Shown piece after piece: positions 36,388 to 58,634 of a DNA stretch of 64,000 nt (position 1 is the first letter of the stretch; every line of letters begins with the position of its first letter). The translations under genes were made by a program, and so were the position numbers. Below the pieces are notes generated by a model. The model was not told the DNA's origin. It worked only from the letters and a program-made list of their open reading frames with translations, and did no database searches. Location: assembly GCF_017349295.1 (NCBI RefSeq), contig NZ_JAFMPK010000035.1:1-64000 (forward strand), in the 5' to 3' direction. Origin of the DNA: Myceligenerans salitolerans (GTDB taxonomy: Bacteria > Actinomycetota > Actinomycetes > Actinomycetales > Cellulomonadaceae).

Positions 36388-36453
36388 CCTGTTCTCCACG
36401 AACCCTCTACCGTCCCTCTGTGCGGCCTCTGCGCTCGTGCAAGTCCGCTCCCC

Positions 36454-50224: not shown

Positions 50225-52561
50225 TCAGTTCAGGTACGCGGCCGCCTCCCAGCGAACCGAGTCGTACACGACCCCTGAGCCACCGAGCACGACGATCCGC
50301 TGCGGGTCGAGCCGATCGAGCTCTGCCTCGATGGCGGACGGCAGCGTCGACTCGTCGGTCAGCAGCACGGGACCGCCGAGGCTGCCGGCCGCCGCGGCGC
50401 CCGACAAGGCGTCCGGGAAGTTTCGCCCGTTCGCGATGTAGACCACGGACGTCCCGGGCCGGAACGCTGCCTCGGAGATCTCCGCCGAGGTCTCCCACCG
50501 GTTGCCGCCGGCCAGTCGGCTCACTCCACCGCTGGTGTGCGTCGCGAGTTCCGCCTCGATGGCGGTGCTGACGACGCCCGACCCACCGAGCACGATGATC
50601 CGCTGGGGCCGGAGCCGGTCCAGCTCGTCCGCGACCGTGCCCGGTAGGGCGTCGTCGTCGGTCAGGAGCACCGGGCCGCCGAGGATGCCGGCGGCTGCCG
50701 CGCCCGACAGCGCGTCGGGGAAGTTGCGGCCGTTCGCCACGTAGGCGACCGCGACGCCCGGGTCGAAGGTCGCGGCCGAGATGGCGGCCGAGGTCTCCCA
50801 CCGGTTCGCGCCCGACAGGCGGGACACGTTCGCCGAGAACGCCGCGAGCGTGGCCTCGACCTCGGACGAGACGACGCCCTCCCCGCCGACGACGACGATC
50901 CGGGTCGGGTTCAGGCGCTCCAGCTCGTTCCGGACCACGGCGGGAATCCGGTCGGTGGCGGTCAGCAGGACCGGGCCGTCGAGCGTGCCGGCGGCCGCGG
51001 CGGCGGACAGTGCGTCGGGGAAGTTGCGACCGCTGGCCACATAGGCCACGTCGACGCCCGCCGTGAAGGTCGCCTCGGAGATCGCCGCCGAGGTCTCGTA
51101 ACGGTTCGCACCGGCGAGCCGCTCGGGCAACTGCGCCGTGTAGTGCTCTGCCCAGTTCCTCGCCGTGGCGCGGATCGTGCTCAGCAGCGGGTAACCCAGG
51201 TTGCCCGGGCAGGCCGTGGCATGGGTGTCACGGTGGCCGAACACGTGCGCGAGTTCCACCTGGTCGCCCGGGTAGTACTTGCCGCCCTCGGTGTGGCCGA
51301 CGGCGGTGAACGTGGACGTGCCCTCGGGGTCGACGCCGTACCGCGCCAGCTTGAAGCCGATGATGTTTCCGACGCCGGTCAGCTGCGCCTCCTGCGGCGC
51401 GACCTCCTGGTAGTTGCCCAGCATGGAGACACCGACCGTGCCTGTGTTCCAGCCTCCCGTGTGGGCGCCGATGATCGGTTCCTCGATGCTGCCGGCGGCG
51501 CCCTCGTAGATGTTGCCCCACTTGTCGACCAGGAAGTTGTAGCCGATGTCGCACCAGCCGTTGGAGTCCTGGTGGAACGCCTGGTCGTTGCGGATCTGCT
51601 GCATGGCTTCCGCGACGGTGGCGTAGTCGTTCGCCCCCGCGGTGTGGTGGACGGCCGCCTTCTCGAGGCCGTCGGGTGCCGGGTACCAGGTCGGTCCGTC
51701 CCCAGGATCGTCACACCGGGGTGCGGCGCCCCACTCCTCGCGCGTGATGATCGTCGGCCCGAAGGATCCGGAGCTCGACGTCGTCGTCTCCGCCGACGTC
51801 GTGGACATGGTCGACGCCGACTCCTGGGAACCCGCGATCTTCCCGCCGGTCAGTGCCTCCGGCGAGTCGACGGTCTCGGAGGACACGAGCACGAGCTCCA
51901 CACCCTCGGGCACGGTCCGCACGCCGTCGACCGTGGCGAGCTGCACGGCGTCGGACTCACCGACGTAGACGGGGACCGAGGTCGTGACGTCGGACTCCTG
52001 GTCGGGCCCGTCCGTCTGCTTCTCGAGGTGCGTCCAGTCGCTCCACGTGCCGTCGAGCGCGCGTGTCCGCACCTGGAGCTCGGGGACGGTGTCGTCGATC
52101 GGCGTCGGCCACTTCGCGCCGACCGTCTGGAAGCCCTCGGGGACCTCGAGCACGCCCGCGAGAAGGCCTGCCTGGTCGGTGGTGTCGAGAGTCACGGCGC
52201 CGTCGTCCGTGGTGTCCGGCGTCGGCTCGGTCGCCGTGTCCTCGGGAGCGGACTCGACGACGTCGTCCACCGTCGTCTCCGGGGCGGTGTCGATGTCGAT
52301 GGAATCGACGTTCGCCTCGGCCGTGCCCGACTCCGGAAGGGTGGAGTCGGTCGTGGTGGTACCCGTCGGCTCCGGCTCCAGGTCGGTGGACCGGTCGTGG
52401 GTGAGCGCGACGGCGCTCGGGGCGAGCGCGCTCGTGAGGGCCAGGGTGGGGATCGCTCCCAGGGCGAGAGCCCGTCCGGCGATGACCCGGGTGACGGGGA
52501 CCACCGGCGTGGAGCGCTTGGCGGTGTACTTCTTCTGTGCAGGCCGTGCGTGCCTTGCCAC
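50225..52561 (-). CDS. Secreted N-acetylmuramoyl-L-alanine amidase (PGRP/Ami_2) with three cell-wall-binding repeats
   Basis: 778-residue peptidoglycan hydrolase cutting the amide bond between MurNAc and L-Ala. Long signal peptide (about 1-52); Asp/Thr/Glu-rich linker to about 130; a conserved N-terminal beta region (about 130-235); PGRP-type amidase domain about 268-470 with REEWGAAPRCD, His305-His306 (AAVHHTAGA), and FGHRDTHATACPG with His443 and Cys451, the zinc ligands; then three CW_binding_2 repeats (about 480-575, 580-675, 680-775), each with NRxETSA, GRNFPDAL, GPVLLT and VVLGGxGVVS. GTG 52561 has GAGGAGGAG upstream, clear in contrast to the many leaderless starts here. A minus-strand TAGGCT (52616-52621) may be its -10. 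Confidence 0.93.
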   Translation of the reverse strand: MARHARPAQKKYTAKRSTPVVPVTRVIAGRALALGAIPTLALTSALAPSAVALTHDRSTDLEPEPTGTTTTDSTLPESGTAEANVDSIDIDTAPETTVDDVVESAPEDTATEPTPDTTDDGAVTLDTTDQAGLLAGVLEVPEGFQTVGAKWPTPIDDTVPELQVRTRALDGTWSDWTHLEKQTDGPDQESDVTTSVPVYVGESDAVQLATVDGVRTVPEGVELVLVSSETVDSPEALTGGKIAGSQESASTMSTTSAETTTSSSGSFGPTIITREEWGAAPRCDDPGDGPTWYPAPDGLEKAAVHHTAGANDYATVAEAMQQIRNDQAFHQDSNGWCDIGYNFLVDKWGNIYEGAAGSIEEPIIGAHTGGWNTGTVGVSMLGNYQEVAPQEAQLTGVGNIIGFKLARYGVDPEGTSTFTAVGHTEGGKYYPGDQVELAHVFGHRDTHATACPGNLGYPLLSTIRATARNWAEHYTAQLPERLAGANRYETSAAISEATFTAGVDVAYVASGRNFPDALSAAAAAGTLDGPVLLTATDRIPAVVRNELERLNPTRIVVVGGEGVVSSEVEATLAAFSANVSRLSGANRWETSAAISAATFDPGVAVAYVANGRNFPDALSGAAAAGILGGPVLLTDDDALPGTVADELDRLRPQRIIVLGGSGVVSTAIEAELATHTSGGVSRLAGGNRWETSAEISEAAFRPGTSVVYIANGRNFPDALSGAAAAGSLGGPVLLTDESTLPSAIEAELDRLDPQRIVVLGGSGVVYDSVRWEAAAYLN

Positions 52562-52672: not shown

Positions 52673-55207
52673 TCACTGCGCCTGTTGTTTCCTGGCCCGC
52701 CAGAGGTGGCTGATCGACCACCTGCTCGCTCGCTCGGTCCGCGACATCGCGTCGGAGGGGCGAACGCCCAGGTCTGTCACCCGGTGCAGGAGGGCAGCCG
52801 GCCCGAACCATTCCCCCGCGCGCCGGATCGCGCGGGAGGACTGGGCCCGGTAGGCGTCCGGATCGGCCCACAGGCGGTCCACGACGGAAAGCGCGTCGTG
52901 CGGTGACGCGTACACGGCGGCATCACCGAAAGTCGGTTCCATGTAGTGCGGCAGAACCACGACGAGACCGGCATGCAACGCCTCGACGGTGGCCATGCCG
53001 AACGACTCGAAGAGCTCGGGTCCGTGGAAGTAGACCCAGAAATCCAGCTCGTTCAGGAACTCGGAGGGAGCGTGCGAGCCGAACGGGTACACCGTCCAGG
53101 CGTTGTCGACGTCGAGCCCGGTGCGGCGACTCGCCTGGGTCGCACCTCCCAGCACGCGGATGTCCCTCGATCCGTCGACGGGGTAGACCTCTTGGAGCAC
53201 CTCGGCGTCGGGCCACTTCTCGAAGCCGTCGCGAGAGTGCCTGCCGATCACCGGCGGACGATCGGGGGCCGCGTCCCTGGGTTCGGCCGGTGCGGAAGGA
53301 AGGATTCCGTGCCAGTCGTTCTCCGTCAGCAGGCCAGGTGCGACGAGTCCCTCGAGGAGCTTGCGGATGACCTTCGACTCGGGGGCGACCTGTGGAGTCA
53401 CGCCGAACATCGCTTCCGCCGTGGTGACGACCGTCGACATGTCGTACATCGGGTTCGAGCCGTCGGCGTCGTGCGGAGGATGATTGACGATCTGAACGAG
53501 GCGGCGGGTGGTGATCGCACACCTTTGTGGCTCGGCGAACTGCAGAACCGTCGGATGACGCACGACCGTGAGATCGGCGGCCAACTCGGTGGCCGACGAG
53601 ACGATCTCAGCTCCGGGCCGCACAGCGACGTCCAGAATTCGGGGGTCGATCCGGAGACCGTGCTTGGGCACAGCGGAATCGAGTTGCAGGAGCGCGACGC
53701 GATGGCCCGCGTCGAGCAGCGCGGTGATCTCGTTACGCGCGAGGCTCGTGTTCCCGCCGGGAAAGCGGAAGTCGGTTGCGTAGACCACATCGACGTGATG
53801 AGGCCTTCGATGTCGCGGTAACAGCATGATCGGCGCGGAGAACGGGCGGGAACCCCCGGCGGAGGGACCGGCTTCGAGCGCGGACGCCGGGGCCGTGGCG
53901 TGCCAGTGCTGGAACGACTCCGCGTACCACCGCCGGTCCTGGTCGAAGGCCACGGGTCGGTCAGGACTCCGATCGGAGCGGATGATCCGGGTCGGCGCCT
54001 TCCCGACGACGCCGATCGCCAGGCCGGTCAGCGCCTTGACTCTGCCCGCCAGTTCTGCGTCCGAGTACCGTTCCGTGCGGTCCCAGCCGCCGGCGAGCAC
54101 GGGATGCTCTCGTCGGAGCATCATGGTGTCGCGTTCGGGGCCTATGAAACCAAGGTTCTCGCCGGAACCGACGAAGTACAGGTCGTCGGTGGCGTGGACG
54201 GCCGGTGCGATACAGCCGACACGCTCCGGGTGGTTCTCCAGGTAGTCGACCTGGCGCTCCACCGCGCGTGGGTGCAGCCAGGTTCCGGGATGGTGGAAGG
54301 TGACGTAGGTGCCGCTGGCTGCACGGGCGATGGCCAGTCGGCGCGCCTCCGTGGGGCCGGCCTCGTCCTCGACCCGGATGTGGCGGATTCGCGGATCGGC
54401 CACGGCCCACGGGCTTCTTCGGGGCAGTGCAGGGACCTGCCGGACGACGATGATCTCCACATTGCGGTAGGACTGCTCCAGAAGCGTCCTCGCGCCGCCC
54501 GGCGTCCATGGTCCGTCGGCAGACGCGACCACGCTGACCAAGGGGCCGCTGTCCACGCGAGACGTCGGTGAGCACTCGAGCCGTTCGAAGGCGCTTCCCG
54601 CTCCCCCACCCACCACGGGCGGTTCCAGTCCTGCGTCGGTGAGAACTGCTTTCAGCGCCCTGGTCGCGGCCTCGAACTCCCGGCCCGTCCTGTCGTGGCG
54701 ACGGCGGAGCGAATTGGCGACGAGCAGCTGCCCCTGACGGTGCGTCGAGTCCGCGGTGCGGAGGGTTCGGACGTAGTGCTTCAGCGCCTCCGTCCGTCCG
54801 TCCAGGGCCAGCAGCTCCAGGAAGTCGAGGGTCTCCCGATCCTGGAGCGCGGCCCTCCCACCGACAACGGCGACCAGTTCGAACAGCGCCAGTGCATCCG
54901 CGCGGTCGTCGTCGTCGCGAGCGGTGCGGGCGACCGTCCTCGCGAGGCGTGCGATGACCCGGAGATCGAGCGTGCCGGCGAGTTCGCGCCGAGCGTCGTC
55001 GGTGCTCGCGTCGTGTACGAGCCTTGCCAGTTCAGCGTACGTCCGGCCGCCGTACGTGGCCGCGGCCGCGATCAGGTCGCGGGCGCGGGTCGTGCCGGTA
55101 CGTATCGACATCTCGGCGAGCCCTCGCGACCGACGTGCGTACGCGGCGGCGAGGCGGTCCTCGATACCGGCTCGTGCATCCGAGGTTCGGTCCGGCGCAG
55201 TGCTCAC
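52673..55207 (-). CDS. Two-module glycosyltransferase (GT2-like plus GT4-like)
   Basis: 844 residues, cytoplasmic, no membrane helix. Helical Ala/Arg-rich region 1-220; a GT2-like module about 225-430 (PLVSVVASADGPWTPGGART, EQSYRNVEIIVV, TFHHPGTWLHPRA at the usual DxD place, lacking a clear DxD); then a GT4-like module about 495-815 (VYATDFRFPGGNTSLARNEI, VVRHPTVLQF, WVYFHGPELFESFGMATVEA, with the E-x7-E motif ESFGMATVE). It resembles teichoic-acid or capsule enzymes with two transfer steps. GTG 55207 follows TAACCT by 6 nt. Between amidase and a divergent cell-wall-binding-repeat gene, so a wall-polymer role fits. The first module may be inactive. Confidence 0.85.
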   Translation of the reverse strand: MSTAPDRTSDARAGIEDRLAAAYARRSRGLAEMSIRTGTTRARDLIAAAATYGGRTYAELARLVHDASTDDARRELAGTLDLRVIARLARTVARTARDDDDRADALALFELVAVVGGRAALQDRETLDFLELLALDGRTEALKHYVRTLRTADSTHRQGQLLVANSLRRRHDRTGREFEAATRALKAVLTDAGLEPPVVGGGAGSAFERLECSPTSRVDSGPLVSVVASADGPWTPGGARTLLEQSYRNVEIIVVRQVPALPRRSPWAVADPRIRHIRVEDEAGPTEARRLAIARAASGTYVTFHHPGTWLHPRAVERQVDYLENHPERVGCIAPAVHATDDLYFVGSGENLGFIGPERDTMMLRREHPVLAGGWDRTERYSDAELAGRVKALTGLAIGVVGKAPTRIIRSDRSPDRPVAFDQDRRWYAESFQHWHATAPASALEAGPSAGGSRPFSAPIMLLPRHRRPHHVDVVYATDFRFPGGNTSLARNEITALLDAGHRVALLQLDSAVPKHGLRIDPRILDVAVRPGAEIVSSATELAADLTVVRHPTVLQFAEPQRCAITTRRLVQIVNHPPHDADGSNPMYDMSTVVTTAEAMFGVTPQVAPESKVIRKLLEGLVAPGLLTENDWHGILPSAPAEPRDAAPDRPPVIGRHSRDGFEKWPDAEVLQEVYPVDGSRDIRVLGGATQASRRTGLDVDNAWTVYPFGSHAPSEFLNELDFWVYFHGPELFESFGMATVEALHAGLVVVLPHYMEPTFGDAAVYASPHDALSVVDRLWADPDAYRAQSSRAIRRAGEWFGPAALLHRVTDLGVRPSDAMSRTERASRWSISHLWRARKQQAQ

Positions 55208-55372: not shown

Positions 55373-56662
55373 ATGCCCAGGCTCGGCACCTTGCTGAAGC
55401 CCACGAAGCTGTCTGCGAAGCGCCATGCGTGCCGTGCGGTCGCGGCCACGGCGACCGCCGCACTGGCGGTCACCGCCCTCGGGGGCACCGTGTCCGCAGC
55501 GCCCGAGGCCGCCCCCGGACCGCGCGCGGACCTCGCCCCGATCGAGTCCCCCGTGAGCAAGATCCCCGCCGAGACGCGGGCCCGGATCACGGCCGAACTT
55601 CGGAAGACGCACGGAGTCCCGGCCGACGCCGGCGTGGAGAGCACCGCCGCCGCCGAGGAGGTCTTCCGTGTGTCCGGCCGGGACCGCTACGCAACCTCGG
55701 TGGAGACCTCGTGGTACACCCCCTGGGGTGACATCGACGGGGACGGGGAACTCGGCGAGGTCGAGTTCGAGGACGGTTCCTTCTGGGTCGAAGAGCCCGC
55801 CCCCGTCGTGTACGTCGCGACCGGCGGCAACTACCCGGACGCGCTCAGCGCGGCTGCACCCGCGGGTCTGCAGGGCGGGCCGCTGCTCCTGACGCGCACG
55901 GACTCGCTACCTGGAATCGTCGCGGACGAGATCGAGCGACTGCAGCCGGAACAGATCGTCGTCGCGGGCGGTGAGGGCGCAGTGTCGGCGGACGTCTACG
56001 ACGAACTGGCCGAGATCGAGCCGAACATCCGCCGGGACGCCGGCAGCACCCGGTACGAGACATCGCGCGTGCTCTCCGAGCGCGGTTTCGCCCACCTGGG
56101 AGACCAGTTCCCGGGTGGGGCCTTCATCACGACGGGCAAGAACTTCCCCGACGCGCTCGCCTCCAGCGCTGCCGGTGGTACGTACGCCTTGCCGGTCGTG
56201 CTCGTCCCCGGGGCCGCTTCCGGGCTCGACGCCGAGACGGAGGCACTGTTCTCCCGTATGGGCATCGACTGGGCCTCGATCGTCGGCGGCACGGGTGCGG
56301 TCAGCGAGGGCATCGAAGCCGACCTGATCGACCGGATGGGCGGCGACTACGTCGAGCGCCTGGGCGGTGCCACGCGGTACGAGACCGCTGTCGCCATCAA
56401 CGACGGCTACTTCGGGTGGGACCACGACGTGAACGGCTACCTGCCTGTCGGGGCCAACATCGCCACGGGCAAGAACTTCCCCGACGCTCTGGGCGCCGGT
56501 GCCCTCGCGGGGATGTACCAGGAGCCGTTGTACACGTCGCGTCAGGACTGTCTGCCGAACGACACCCTCGACCACATGCGGTACCTGGAGGTCCAGGAGG
56601 TCTGGCTCTACGGCGGCGAGAGCGCGCTGAGCCCTGCGGTCGAGGCACTCACGACCTGCTGA
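55373..56662 (+). CDS. Secreted cell-wall-binding-repeat (CW_binding_2) protein with EF-hand-like insertion
   Basis: 429 residues. Signal peptide about 1-42 (ATAALAVTALGG, VSAAPEAA). No catalytic domain; three CW_binding_2 repeats from about 97 (SGRDRYATS), 221 (DAGSTRYETS) and 330 (GGATRYETA), each with NFPDAL-type cores. In repeat 1 a 20-residue insertion contains DIDGDGELGEVE (120-131), a textbook EF-hand/dockerin calcium loop. Repeat 3 has a degenerate version (DHDVNGYL, 350-357) at the same place. ATG 55373 with GAAGGAG upstream. The amidase at 50225 carries the same repeats without insertions. Likely a wall-anchored surface protein whose folding or binding depends on calcium. Confidence 0.88.
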   Translation: MPRLGTLLKPTKLSAKRHACRAVAATATAALAVTALGGTVSAAPEAAPGPRADLAPIESPVSKIPAETRARITAELRKTHGVPADAGVESTAAAEEVFRVSGRDRYATSVETSWYTPWGDIDGDGELGEVEFEDGSFWVEEPAPVVYVATGGNYPDALSAAAPAGLQGGPLLLTRTDSLPGIVADEIERLQPEQIVVAGGEGAVSADVYDELAEIEPNIRRDAGSTRYETSRVLSERGFAHLGDQFPGGAFITTGKNFPDALASSAAGGTYALPVVLVPGAASGLDAETEALFSRMGIDWASIVGGTGAVSEGIEADLIDRMGGDYVERLGGATRYETAVAINDGYFGWDHDVNGYLPVGANIATGKNFPDALGAGALAGMYQEPLYTSRQDCLPNDTLDHMRYLEVQEVWLYGGESALSPAVEALTTC

Positions 56663-56725: not shown

Positions 56726-57149
56726 GTTGACGTTTCTGACCGCCTGCACGATCCGCCGGCGACCACCCACCGACTCCACGATCTGCACCGCTGTCGTCCC
56801 GACGCCGCTCGCACCAGATCATGGGGGCTCGTCCGGTCGGTGACCGGGCGTGAACGGCTGGGCCGTGCCGTCGATCGGGTCAGGCCTGCCCGCAGCAGTT
56901 CGAGGGGTGGAGATCGAGCCGCCTGCGTCGATCCAGACGGCATTCGGCCGACCCTGCCGAAGTCCTTCCAGCGACGTCAGGAGGCGCTCGGCATGCTCCG
57001 GTCCGACGAGGAGGTTGTTGACCTCCGCCTGAGGGGCGTCCTGCCAACCCGCCAGCGAGTGTTCGACGCCGCCCACATCGAGCGGGAGCGCGACGGTGGT
57101 GGGCCTCCGCGACGACGCCTTCGGACGAACCGCACGTCCGCGCGACCAG
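56726..57149. other. Stretch without assigned gene between CW_binding_2 protein and manB
   Basis: About 420 bp. A minus-strand open frame ending at 56819 has plausible codon use over about 60 codons (HSLAGWQDAPQAEVNNLLVG and ERLLTSLEGLRQG) but no start codon with a ribosome site or -10 in frame, and no family I know. An adjacent minus frame has its own ATG near 57164 (MARVLVARTCGSSEG), so one frameshifted or decayed gene is possible. Not annotated as CDS. Confidence 0.4.
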
Positions 57150-57155
57150 TACCCT
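57150..57155 (+). promoter_or_regulatory. -10 element of manB, leaderless
   Basis: TACCCT, 6 nt, then GTG 57162. Confidence 0.6.
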
Positions 57156-57161
57156 TGCCAT

Positions 57162-58634
57162 GTGTCGATCGACCTCACCCAGATCATCAAGGCCTACGAC
57201 GTCCGCGGCACCGTGCCGGACCAGCTCTCGCCCGGCGTGGCGCGCGCCATCGGGGCCGCGTTCGCGCGGGTCGTGGTGCTGAACGCCCAGGACAGGCGCG
57301 CCGGCGGTGACCAGGCTCGCCCCGGCGTCGTCGTCGGCCACGACATGCGGGAGTCCGGCCCTGAGCTCGTCGCGGCGTTCGCCGAGGGGCTGACCGCCGC
57401 CGGCGTCGACGTCGTGCGCATCGGGCTGTGCTCGACGGACGGTCTGTACCACGCCTCCGGCGTCCTGGACCTGCCGGGCGCGATGTTCACCGCCAGCCAC
57501 AACCCGGCCGAGTACAACGGCATCAAGCTGTGCAAGGCCGGGGCGGCGCCCGTCGGGCAGGAGACCGGCCTCGCGGAGGTCCGGGAGCTGGCCCAGGGCT
57601 ACCTGGACGGCGGGCTTCCCGAGCCCGCCGCTGAGCCGGGCACGGTCACGGACCGCGACATGCTCGGCGACTACGCGGCCTTCCTGCGCGGCCTCGTCGA
57701 CCTCTCGGGCCTCCGCCCGCTCAAGGTCGTCGTCGACGCCGGCAACGGCATGGGCGGGCACACCGTTCCGGCCGTCCTCGGCACGGGGGCCGGACTGCCG
57801 GAGCTGCCGCTGGAGATCGTGCCGCTGTACTTCGAGCTGGACGGCTCCTTCCCGAACCACGAGGCGAATCCGCTCGAGCCCAAGAACCTGCTGGACCTGC
57901 AGGCAGCCGTGGTGGCGAACGAAGCGGACATCGGCCTCGCGTTCGACGGCGACGCCGACCGCTGCTTCGTCGTGGACGAGAAGGGCGCCCCGGTCTCGCC
58001 GTCGGCCATCACCGCGCTGGTAGGACTGCGTGAGGTGGAGAAGGAGCGGGCCGAGGGCCGCGACTCGATCGTGATCCACAACCTGATCACGTCCCGTGCC
58101 GTGCCGGACTTCCTCACCGCTGCGGGCGCCACCACCGTGCGCACGCGCGTGGGCCACTCCTTCATCAAGGCGCAGATGGCCGAGCACACAGCCGTGTTCG
58201 GCGGGGAGCACAGCGCCCACTACTACTTCCGCGACTTCTTCTTCGCGGACACCGGCATGCTCGCCGCGATGCACGTGCTCGCGGCGCTCGGCACGCAGGA
58301 GCACCCGCTGAGCGCGCTCGGCGAGATGTACGAGCCGTACGTGGCCTCGGGCGAGATCAACTCGCGGGTCACGGACGTCCCCGCGGCCCGGGCGCGCGTC
58401 TACGAGGCGTACGTGACCCGGGAAGGCGCGGGTGCCGTCGAGGTCGACGAGCTCGACGGGCTCACGGTGTCCCACTGGGACGGGCAGCCTCAGTGGTGGT
58501 TCAACCTGCGTGCCTCGAACACAGAGCCGTTGCTGCGGCTCAACGTGGAGGCCGCGGACGCCGACATCATGGAGAAGGTGCGCGACGACGTGCTGTCTCT
58601 GGTGCGCGCCGACGACCCGGAGCAGGACGCGTGA
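57162..58634 (+). CDS. manB: Phosphomannomutase/phosphoglucomutase
   Basis: 490-residue alpha-D-phosphohexomutase converting mannose-6-P to mannose-1-P (and possibly the glucose pair), next step after ManA. Catalytic phosphoserine Ser112 in FTASHNPAEYNGIK; metal loop DGDADR at 262-267; sugar-binding GGEHSAHYYF; phosphate-binding end NLRASNTEPLLRLNVEA. N-terminus DLTQIIKAYDVRGTVPDQL is the actinobacterial ManB form. GTG 57162 is chosen because TACCCT lies 6 nt upstream; the frame is open 22 codons further. Stop overlaps the Trm112-like start (GTGA 58631-58634). Confidence 0.95.
   Translation: MSIDLTQIIKAYDVRGTVPDQLSPGVARAIGAAFARVVVLNAQDRRAGGDQARPGVVVGHDMRESGPELVAAFAEGLTAAGVDVVRIGLCSTDGLYHASGVLDLPGAMFTASHNPAEYNGIKLCKAGAAPVGQETGLAEVRELAQGYLDGGLPEPAAEPGTVTDRDMLGDYAAFLRGLVDLSGLRPLKVVVDAGNGMGGHTVPAVLGTGAGLPELPLEIVPLYFELDGSFPNHEANPLEPKNLLDLQAAVVANEADIGLAFDGDADRCFVVDEKGAPVSPSAITALVGLREVEKERAEGRDSIVIHNLITSRAVPDFLTAAGATTVRTRVGHSFIKAQMAEHTAVFGGEHSAHYYFRDFFFADTGMLAAMHVLAALGTQEHPLSALGEMYEPYVASGEINSRVTDVPAARARVYEAYVTREGAGAVEVDELDGLTVSHWDGQPQWWFNLRASNTEPLLRLNVEAADADIMEKVRDDVLSLVRADDPEQDA

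Follow-up and report, generated by a model that had tools for sequence, protein, structure and literature searches.

In C. difficile, the proteins Cwp8, Cwp6 and SlpA are built with three tandem CWB2 repeats, and the neighbors of CWB2 genes in the AP and slpA loci include genes concerned with polysaccharides and mannose (PMC5842191, accessible text). A different body of knowledge concerns the short Dx[DN]xDG loop, which, according to the accessible text of PMC3123361, holds Ca2+ in loops of many unrelated proteins, for the most part extracellular, some of these loops having a helix-loop-strand context; convergent emergence of the motif is established, grafting of one such loop between two strands created a new site, and slippage has been proposed as an origin of the motif. 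Because the terms ‘cell wall’ and ‘S-layer’ are absent from the main text of PMC3123361, a CWB2 context for such a loop is probably an addition to the folds known to carry it. A literature search combining CWB2 or PF04122 with calcium or EF-hand retrieved, in the accessible parts of the sources, no report of CWB2 repeats with a calcium loop. A phage lysin likewise has an EF-like loop in a wall-acting protein, but it is not a CWB2 protein.

The DNA analyzed here is a stretch of 64,000 nucleotides of Myceligenerans salitolerans, hereafter referred to as the window. Positions 36420–63990 of it encode an LCP (LytR-CpsA-Psr) protein, DUF2142/PMT-like proteins, glycosyltransferases, phosphomannose isomerase, PMM/PGM and two AT3-SGNH acyltransferases, apparently representing a mannose-using wall-glycopolymer locus which encloses the only two CWB2 genes found in the genome (six PF04122 matches), those of a 429-residue protein and of an amidase (Table 1). 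The locus recalls the AP/slpA loci of C. difficile, in which CWB2 genes and genes for polysaccharides and mannose are likewise neighbors. The region separating the two CWB2 genes contains a frame of 844 aa (52673–55207, minus strand) that matched nothing in Pfam at E 1e-5. The 429-residue protein matches PF04122 in three stretches with 153.4 bits (curated cut-off 24.9) and begins with an apparent N-terminal signal peptide, as judged by eye; we infer that it is a three-repeat CWB2 wall-anchoring protein, putatively exported. Binding of an anionic wall glycopolymer marks the CWB2 family, and the locus context suggests that this protein would attach to the one synthesized by the neighboring gene products. 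Unlike Cwp8, Cwp6 and SlpA, it has no fused functional domain that could be seen and carries in repeat 1 an extra 22-residue insert with an EF-type loop. Cys393 and the C-terminal Cys429, both in repeat 3, are invariant in 8/8 aligned proteins and could form a disulphide of the three-repeat subfamily.

Table 1. Positions of the two CWB2 proteins, of the repeats and calcium-type loops of the 429-residue protein, and of a neighboring sugar-phosphate mutase gene in the window
Feature	Position	Strand	Remarks
Amidase (Amidase_2) with three ordinary CWB2 repeats	50225..52561	-	
429-residue protein, apparent signal peptide and three CW_binding_2 repeats	55373..56662	+	translation; PF04122 E 2.4e-45
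CWB2 repeat 1, bears the insertion	55667..55996	+	PF04122 E 9.1e-16 across 330 bases
EF-type loop DIDGDGELGEVE, residues 120-131	55730..55765	+	ligands D1 D3 D5 E12, plus G6, L8
CWB2 repeat 2, loop without Dx[DN]xDG motif	56033..56317	+	
CWB2 repeat 3, loop about 8 residues above usual length, common to relatives	56357..56644	+	
Half EF motif DHDVNGYLPVGA, residues 350-361	56420..56455	+	D1 D3 N5 G6 L8, no acid at 12
Phosphomannomutase/phosphoglucomutase	57096..58634	+	frame from first listed GTG

The original prediction held that repeat 1 of the 429-residue protein contains an inserted loop matching the EF-hand calcium loop at every ligand position, and that the repeats of the neighboring amidase have no such insertion. 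Both statements hold. The loop is complete and lies in a genuine insertion, which adds about 22 residues after helix 1 and before the strand that follows it; in all three amidase repeats this loop is of the usual short kind, without the motif. The PF04122 match accordingly spans 330 bases in repeat 1 versus 264–267 in the amidase repeats, and the helix 1-strand stretch comprises 38 residues in repeat 1 and 23 in repeat 3, being 14–18 residues long in 73 of the 89 repeat-like matches from the first 66 loci (a few of the other long stretches among these matches are spans misread by the search expression). All the features that define a Dx[DN]xDG loop, namely D1, D/N3, D5, G6 and a later acidic ligand, are present in repeat 1. 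Position 9 of an EF loop is a water-mediated position; in DIDGDGELGEVE it is occupied by Gly, and the remaining ligand positions fit an EF loop. In the DNA of this motif GACGGG occurs twice in tandem, which would fit an origin by slippage. A sequencing or frame artefact was ruled out, as the frame is open across the insert and homologues have inserts at the same place.

The fold of the protein was predicted with AlphaFold. With 10 sequences in the alignment, the model had a mean pLDDT of 89 and a pTM of 0.88, residues 31–43 and 47–51 falling below 50; with the three insert-bearing sequences alone, the mean pLDDT was 74, and residues 29–45 and 50–52 were below 50. The calcium-type loop (model residues 32–43) is thus the least confident part of both models, which is weak evidence against a site, because the alignment was shallow, only three sequences in it carrying the insert, and no ion was modeled. 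In a Foldseek search the model matched SlpA, Cwp8 and Cwp6 (TM 0.73–0.78 by query length, E 2.6e-20 to 1.7e-15), so the three-domain trefoil fold of the solved CWB2 members is predicted to be present. The loop spans from helix 17–25 to strand 58–62 of the model and, since it runs from helix to strand, is not a helix-loop-helix EF-hand. Like the loops described in the accessible text of PMC3123361, it lies between regular secondary structures, has homologues with or without the motif, combines the same motif with a later acid (E12) and is apparently extracellular. A Pfam search of the insert alone gave no hit at E up to 10, EF-hand and dockerin profiles included, although HMMER filters may drop short weak matches to profiles of this kind. 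The loop resembles those of the dockerin type (GDxDGDG...), and the best weak matches of the insert included 8x39, a serine protease chain with GDIDGNGEISSIDY, which was not significant (E 0.21). Dockerins have two such repeats and bind a partner. This identity was rejected, as only one complete loop is present in the window protein and there is no Pfam match.

In repeat 3, the motif residues DHDVNG (residues 350–355, positions 56420–56437) are followed by Pro at position 9 and, at position 12, by Ala in place of the closing acid, which is absent within the 12 residues. DHDVNG and DIDGDGELGEVE share their offset, each starting 15 residues past the Arg of its own RYxT. This second loop had been described as a decayed one, a reading that the relatives do not support: in six of them (five distinct 12-mers) the repeat 3 loop is as long as in the window (39 residues from RYxT to FPDAL), and Pro9 is found in 6/6 and D3 in 3/6, while D1, N5 and G6 are found in 0/6 in register. 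The motif residues of window repeat 3 thus look mostly gained rather than left over, as judged from the aligned sequences. With a shift of one residue, the E/D-G of three Cellulosimicrobium proteins (L067, L068 and L070) would align with the N-G of the window.

Matches to the 429-residue protein at E <= 0.001 were detected in 16 of 221 genomes of the host's family, the window's own included, and in none of the three other genomes of the host's genus searched. A scan of genome contigs with the single protein revealed no close relatives, and a scan with alignment A2 revealed four loci. On plasmids, 10 records matched, all below 60% identity and 0/10 covering 80% of the query; in viral contigs scanned with alignment A2, six loci were found at 27% identity, one of which (L170) has ordinary loops. 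The insert-bearing proteins found are that of the window and those of L067, L068 and L070, which share its insert position in repeat 1; the L067 protein is the same as that in L093 (Cellulosimicrobium cellulans PW), and the L068 protein the same as that in L094 (a Cellulosimicrobium MAG), L093 and L094 both being preceded by a UDP-GlcNAc 2-epimerase gene and followed downstream by a gene for an amidase with CWB2 repeats, with a stretch of no assignment in between. In repeat 1, the loop begins with DIDGDG in the window versus DGGLTG, DGGMTG and DGGRSG at the same six positions in the three Cellulosimicrobium homologues. In this ungapped register D1 and G6 are retained, and D3 and D5 are absent in 3/3; in a gapped register against TGVVDGVLDADE, TGVFNGVIDAGE and SGVLNGRIDADE, D/N5, G6, the hydrophobic residue at 8 and E12 are retained, but D1 and D3 are not. 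Whichever register is taken, the full ligand set is conserved in 0/3 of these proteins, the inserts of which are Gly/Asp-rich without the full motif; retention of the motif among orthologues would have been a sign of function, although such a loop does not strictly require it. The original prediction was to fall if the insertion proved unique and not conserved: the insertion is shared by three homologues, the full ligand set by none. As far as seen in the sequences, the insert position is shared, and the full calcium motif is the window lineage's own.

Whole-length identity to the window protein was 42, 41 and 40% for the insert-bearing homologues and 40–46% for four proteins without the insert. 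Three tree runs placed the four insert-bearing proteins together in their best trees, support for the group being weak (59/51, 70/57 and 60/22), and the tree program warned of long branches meeting, in one run those of the window's protein and the Cellulosimicrobium insert group. A single origin of the repeat 1 insert is likely, with weak clade support and with identity values that do not favor the insert-bearing homologues. Since close relatives are without the motif, the calcium-type loop seems to have been added locally within an established family, and the protein does not look like a new kind of wall binder.

A wider survey points to the rarity of such loops. Among 387 unique repeat envelopes, taken from 153 frames of loci L001–L169 and representing best hits near the 429-residue protein or PF04122 rather than a random sample, D.[DNS].[DNS]G occurred in three: window repeat 3, repeat 2 of L132, and L152, where it lies outside this loop; window repeat 1 is absent from this count because its envelope was split. 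Insertions of at least six residues numbered 26 in 391 unique repeats (L068 and L027 repeats counted twice, window repeat 1 missing owing to its split match), and as 21 of them fall in the helix 1-strand stretch, it is an insertion-tolerant place. A codon pattern for DxDxDG upstream of [FY]xDA was found in 11 of 80 CWB2-bearing genomes (reversed control, 2/80), and a tighter pattern, which misses other spacings and codings, in 0/12, 1/186, 6/249 and 9/396 genomes of overlapping samples (the last including the host's own genome), with no control match seen. Nearly all of these matches are background, because CWB2 repeats are present in only two of the 29 pattern-fetched loci, L131 (the window's own) and L132. 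The CWB2 protein of L132 (L132:766-2058:+), from another family, carries DDDQDGKPDGKG, of the DDDQDG type, in the same loop of repeat 2. In its genus, orthologues were matched in 8 of 12 genomes (the best in another genome with E 6.7e-34 and 39% identity), and no fetched repeat from that genus apart from L132 itself had the motif in this loop. In repeat 1 of L132, the helix 1-strand stretch, which in repeat 2 holds DDDQDGKPDGKG, contains a loop with two Cys, VCARTATSC, as if one loop were stabilized by different means. A calcium loop as a common CWB2 feature was rejected, being rare in the survey. CWB2 itself had no match at E 0.001 in 337 of 396 genomes of the order; the score-ranked matches across the order, reaching E 3.5e-18 among the matches listed, are unsuited to revealing inserts. 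Some genomes gave dozens of first-look CWB2 candidates (61 in G031 and 78 in G912, 14 of each being scored).

Considering these data, we put the chances that the repeat 1 loop binds a structural Ca2+ at about even. The motif may instead be incidental to an acidic, Gly-rich surface insert of an acidified CWB2 lineage and hold no specific metal, a possibility which we consider rather unlikely but which several observations favor: the protein has a net charge of -37 over 341 residues versus -11 to -17 in the insert-bearing homologues, its core minus the insert contains 14.5% D+E, the repeats of the window amidase are also more acidic (-15 versus -7 and +3 in two Cellulosimicrobium counterparts), the homologue inserts are rich in Gly and Asp without the full motif, and the loop is disordered in the models. 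The composition of the core, however, predicts 0.026 D.[DN].[DN]G per protein (5.9e-4 at each of 44 Gly), whereas two are observed, at one structural position, and the 12-residue motif arose in 0.02% of 200,000 shuffles of the 30-residue insert and in 0.065% of 20,000 shuffles of the mature protein, all these figures being post hoc and the protein unusually acidic. Moreover, Dx[DN]x[DN]G has only two occurrences in 28 gene-like frames of the window (15,063 residues; 24 of 26 frames picked by G+C pattern, the 429-residue protein and three more), both in the 429-residue protein, although several of the other frames examined are about as acidic. With the same reservations as to post hoc testing and acidity, the pair of motifs in repeats 1 and 3 is unlikely by chance. 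Both window CWB2 proteins are more acidic than the compared Cellulosimicrobium counterparts, perhaps reflecting a salt-adapted or otherwise acidified surface.

A more far-reaching proposal is that Ca2+ in repeat 1, and perhaps in repeat 3, shapes the glycopolymer-binding surface, extracellular Ca2+ switching attachment. The motifs at the same offset in two of the three repeats and the place of the gene among mannose, glycosyltransferase and LCP genes agree with this proposal, but the same repeats are found in homologues devoid of the ligands, which presumably bind, and the insert sits on an insertion-tolerant loop; we regard it as improbable. Least credible, and in our opinion highly improbable, is descent from an ancestral CWB2 protein with EF loops in repeats 1 and 3 that were lost in most descendants. 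Although repeats 1 and 3 share the offset, homologues keep D1 and G6 of repeat 1 in the ungapped register and half of the six relatives have D3 in repeat 3, all six same-length relatives, the insert-free paralogues L071, L082 and L191 included, are without D1, N5 and G6 in register, and in the 387 envelopes (repeat 1 uncounted) the motif occupies this loop only in window repeat 3 and L132 repeat 2.

The reading in which the repeat 1 loop holds a structural Ca2+ starts from the stretch between helix 1 and the strand, at which insertions are tolerated in CWB2 repeats. In an ancestor probably shared with a Cellulosimicrobium subfamily, the repeat 1 loop would have become a long Gly/Asp-rich insert, which in the window lineage would then have acquired the full Dx[DN]xDG loop in a helix-loop-strand context; the direction of change, a motif gained in the window lineage, is thus the one we infer. 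Extracellular Ca2+ being plentiful, the repeat 1 loop would most likely bind one Ca2+, and the bound ion would order an otherwise floppy 30-residue stretch on the trefoil surface. As for the half motif of repeat 3, it may contribute to another site of weaker binding, or it may only come near to the motif.

Should no Ca2+ be bound, the insert would be a commonplace acidic loop of the protein surface. The stages through which a convergent motif passes have been sought and are hard to document (PMC3123361), and the pair of the window and Cellulosimicrobium would, if the loop binds Ca2+, show intermediate ones. Were attachment to the glycopolymer sensitive to extracellular Ca2+, the window and the Cellulosimicrobium sequences (DGGLTG, DGGMTG, DGGRSG) would form a natural series for the birth of Dx[DN]xDG. 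If the loop does bind Ca2+, CWB2 would join the folds in which the motif arose, and a wall-anchoring module would gain a metal-dependent part.
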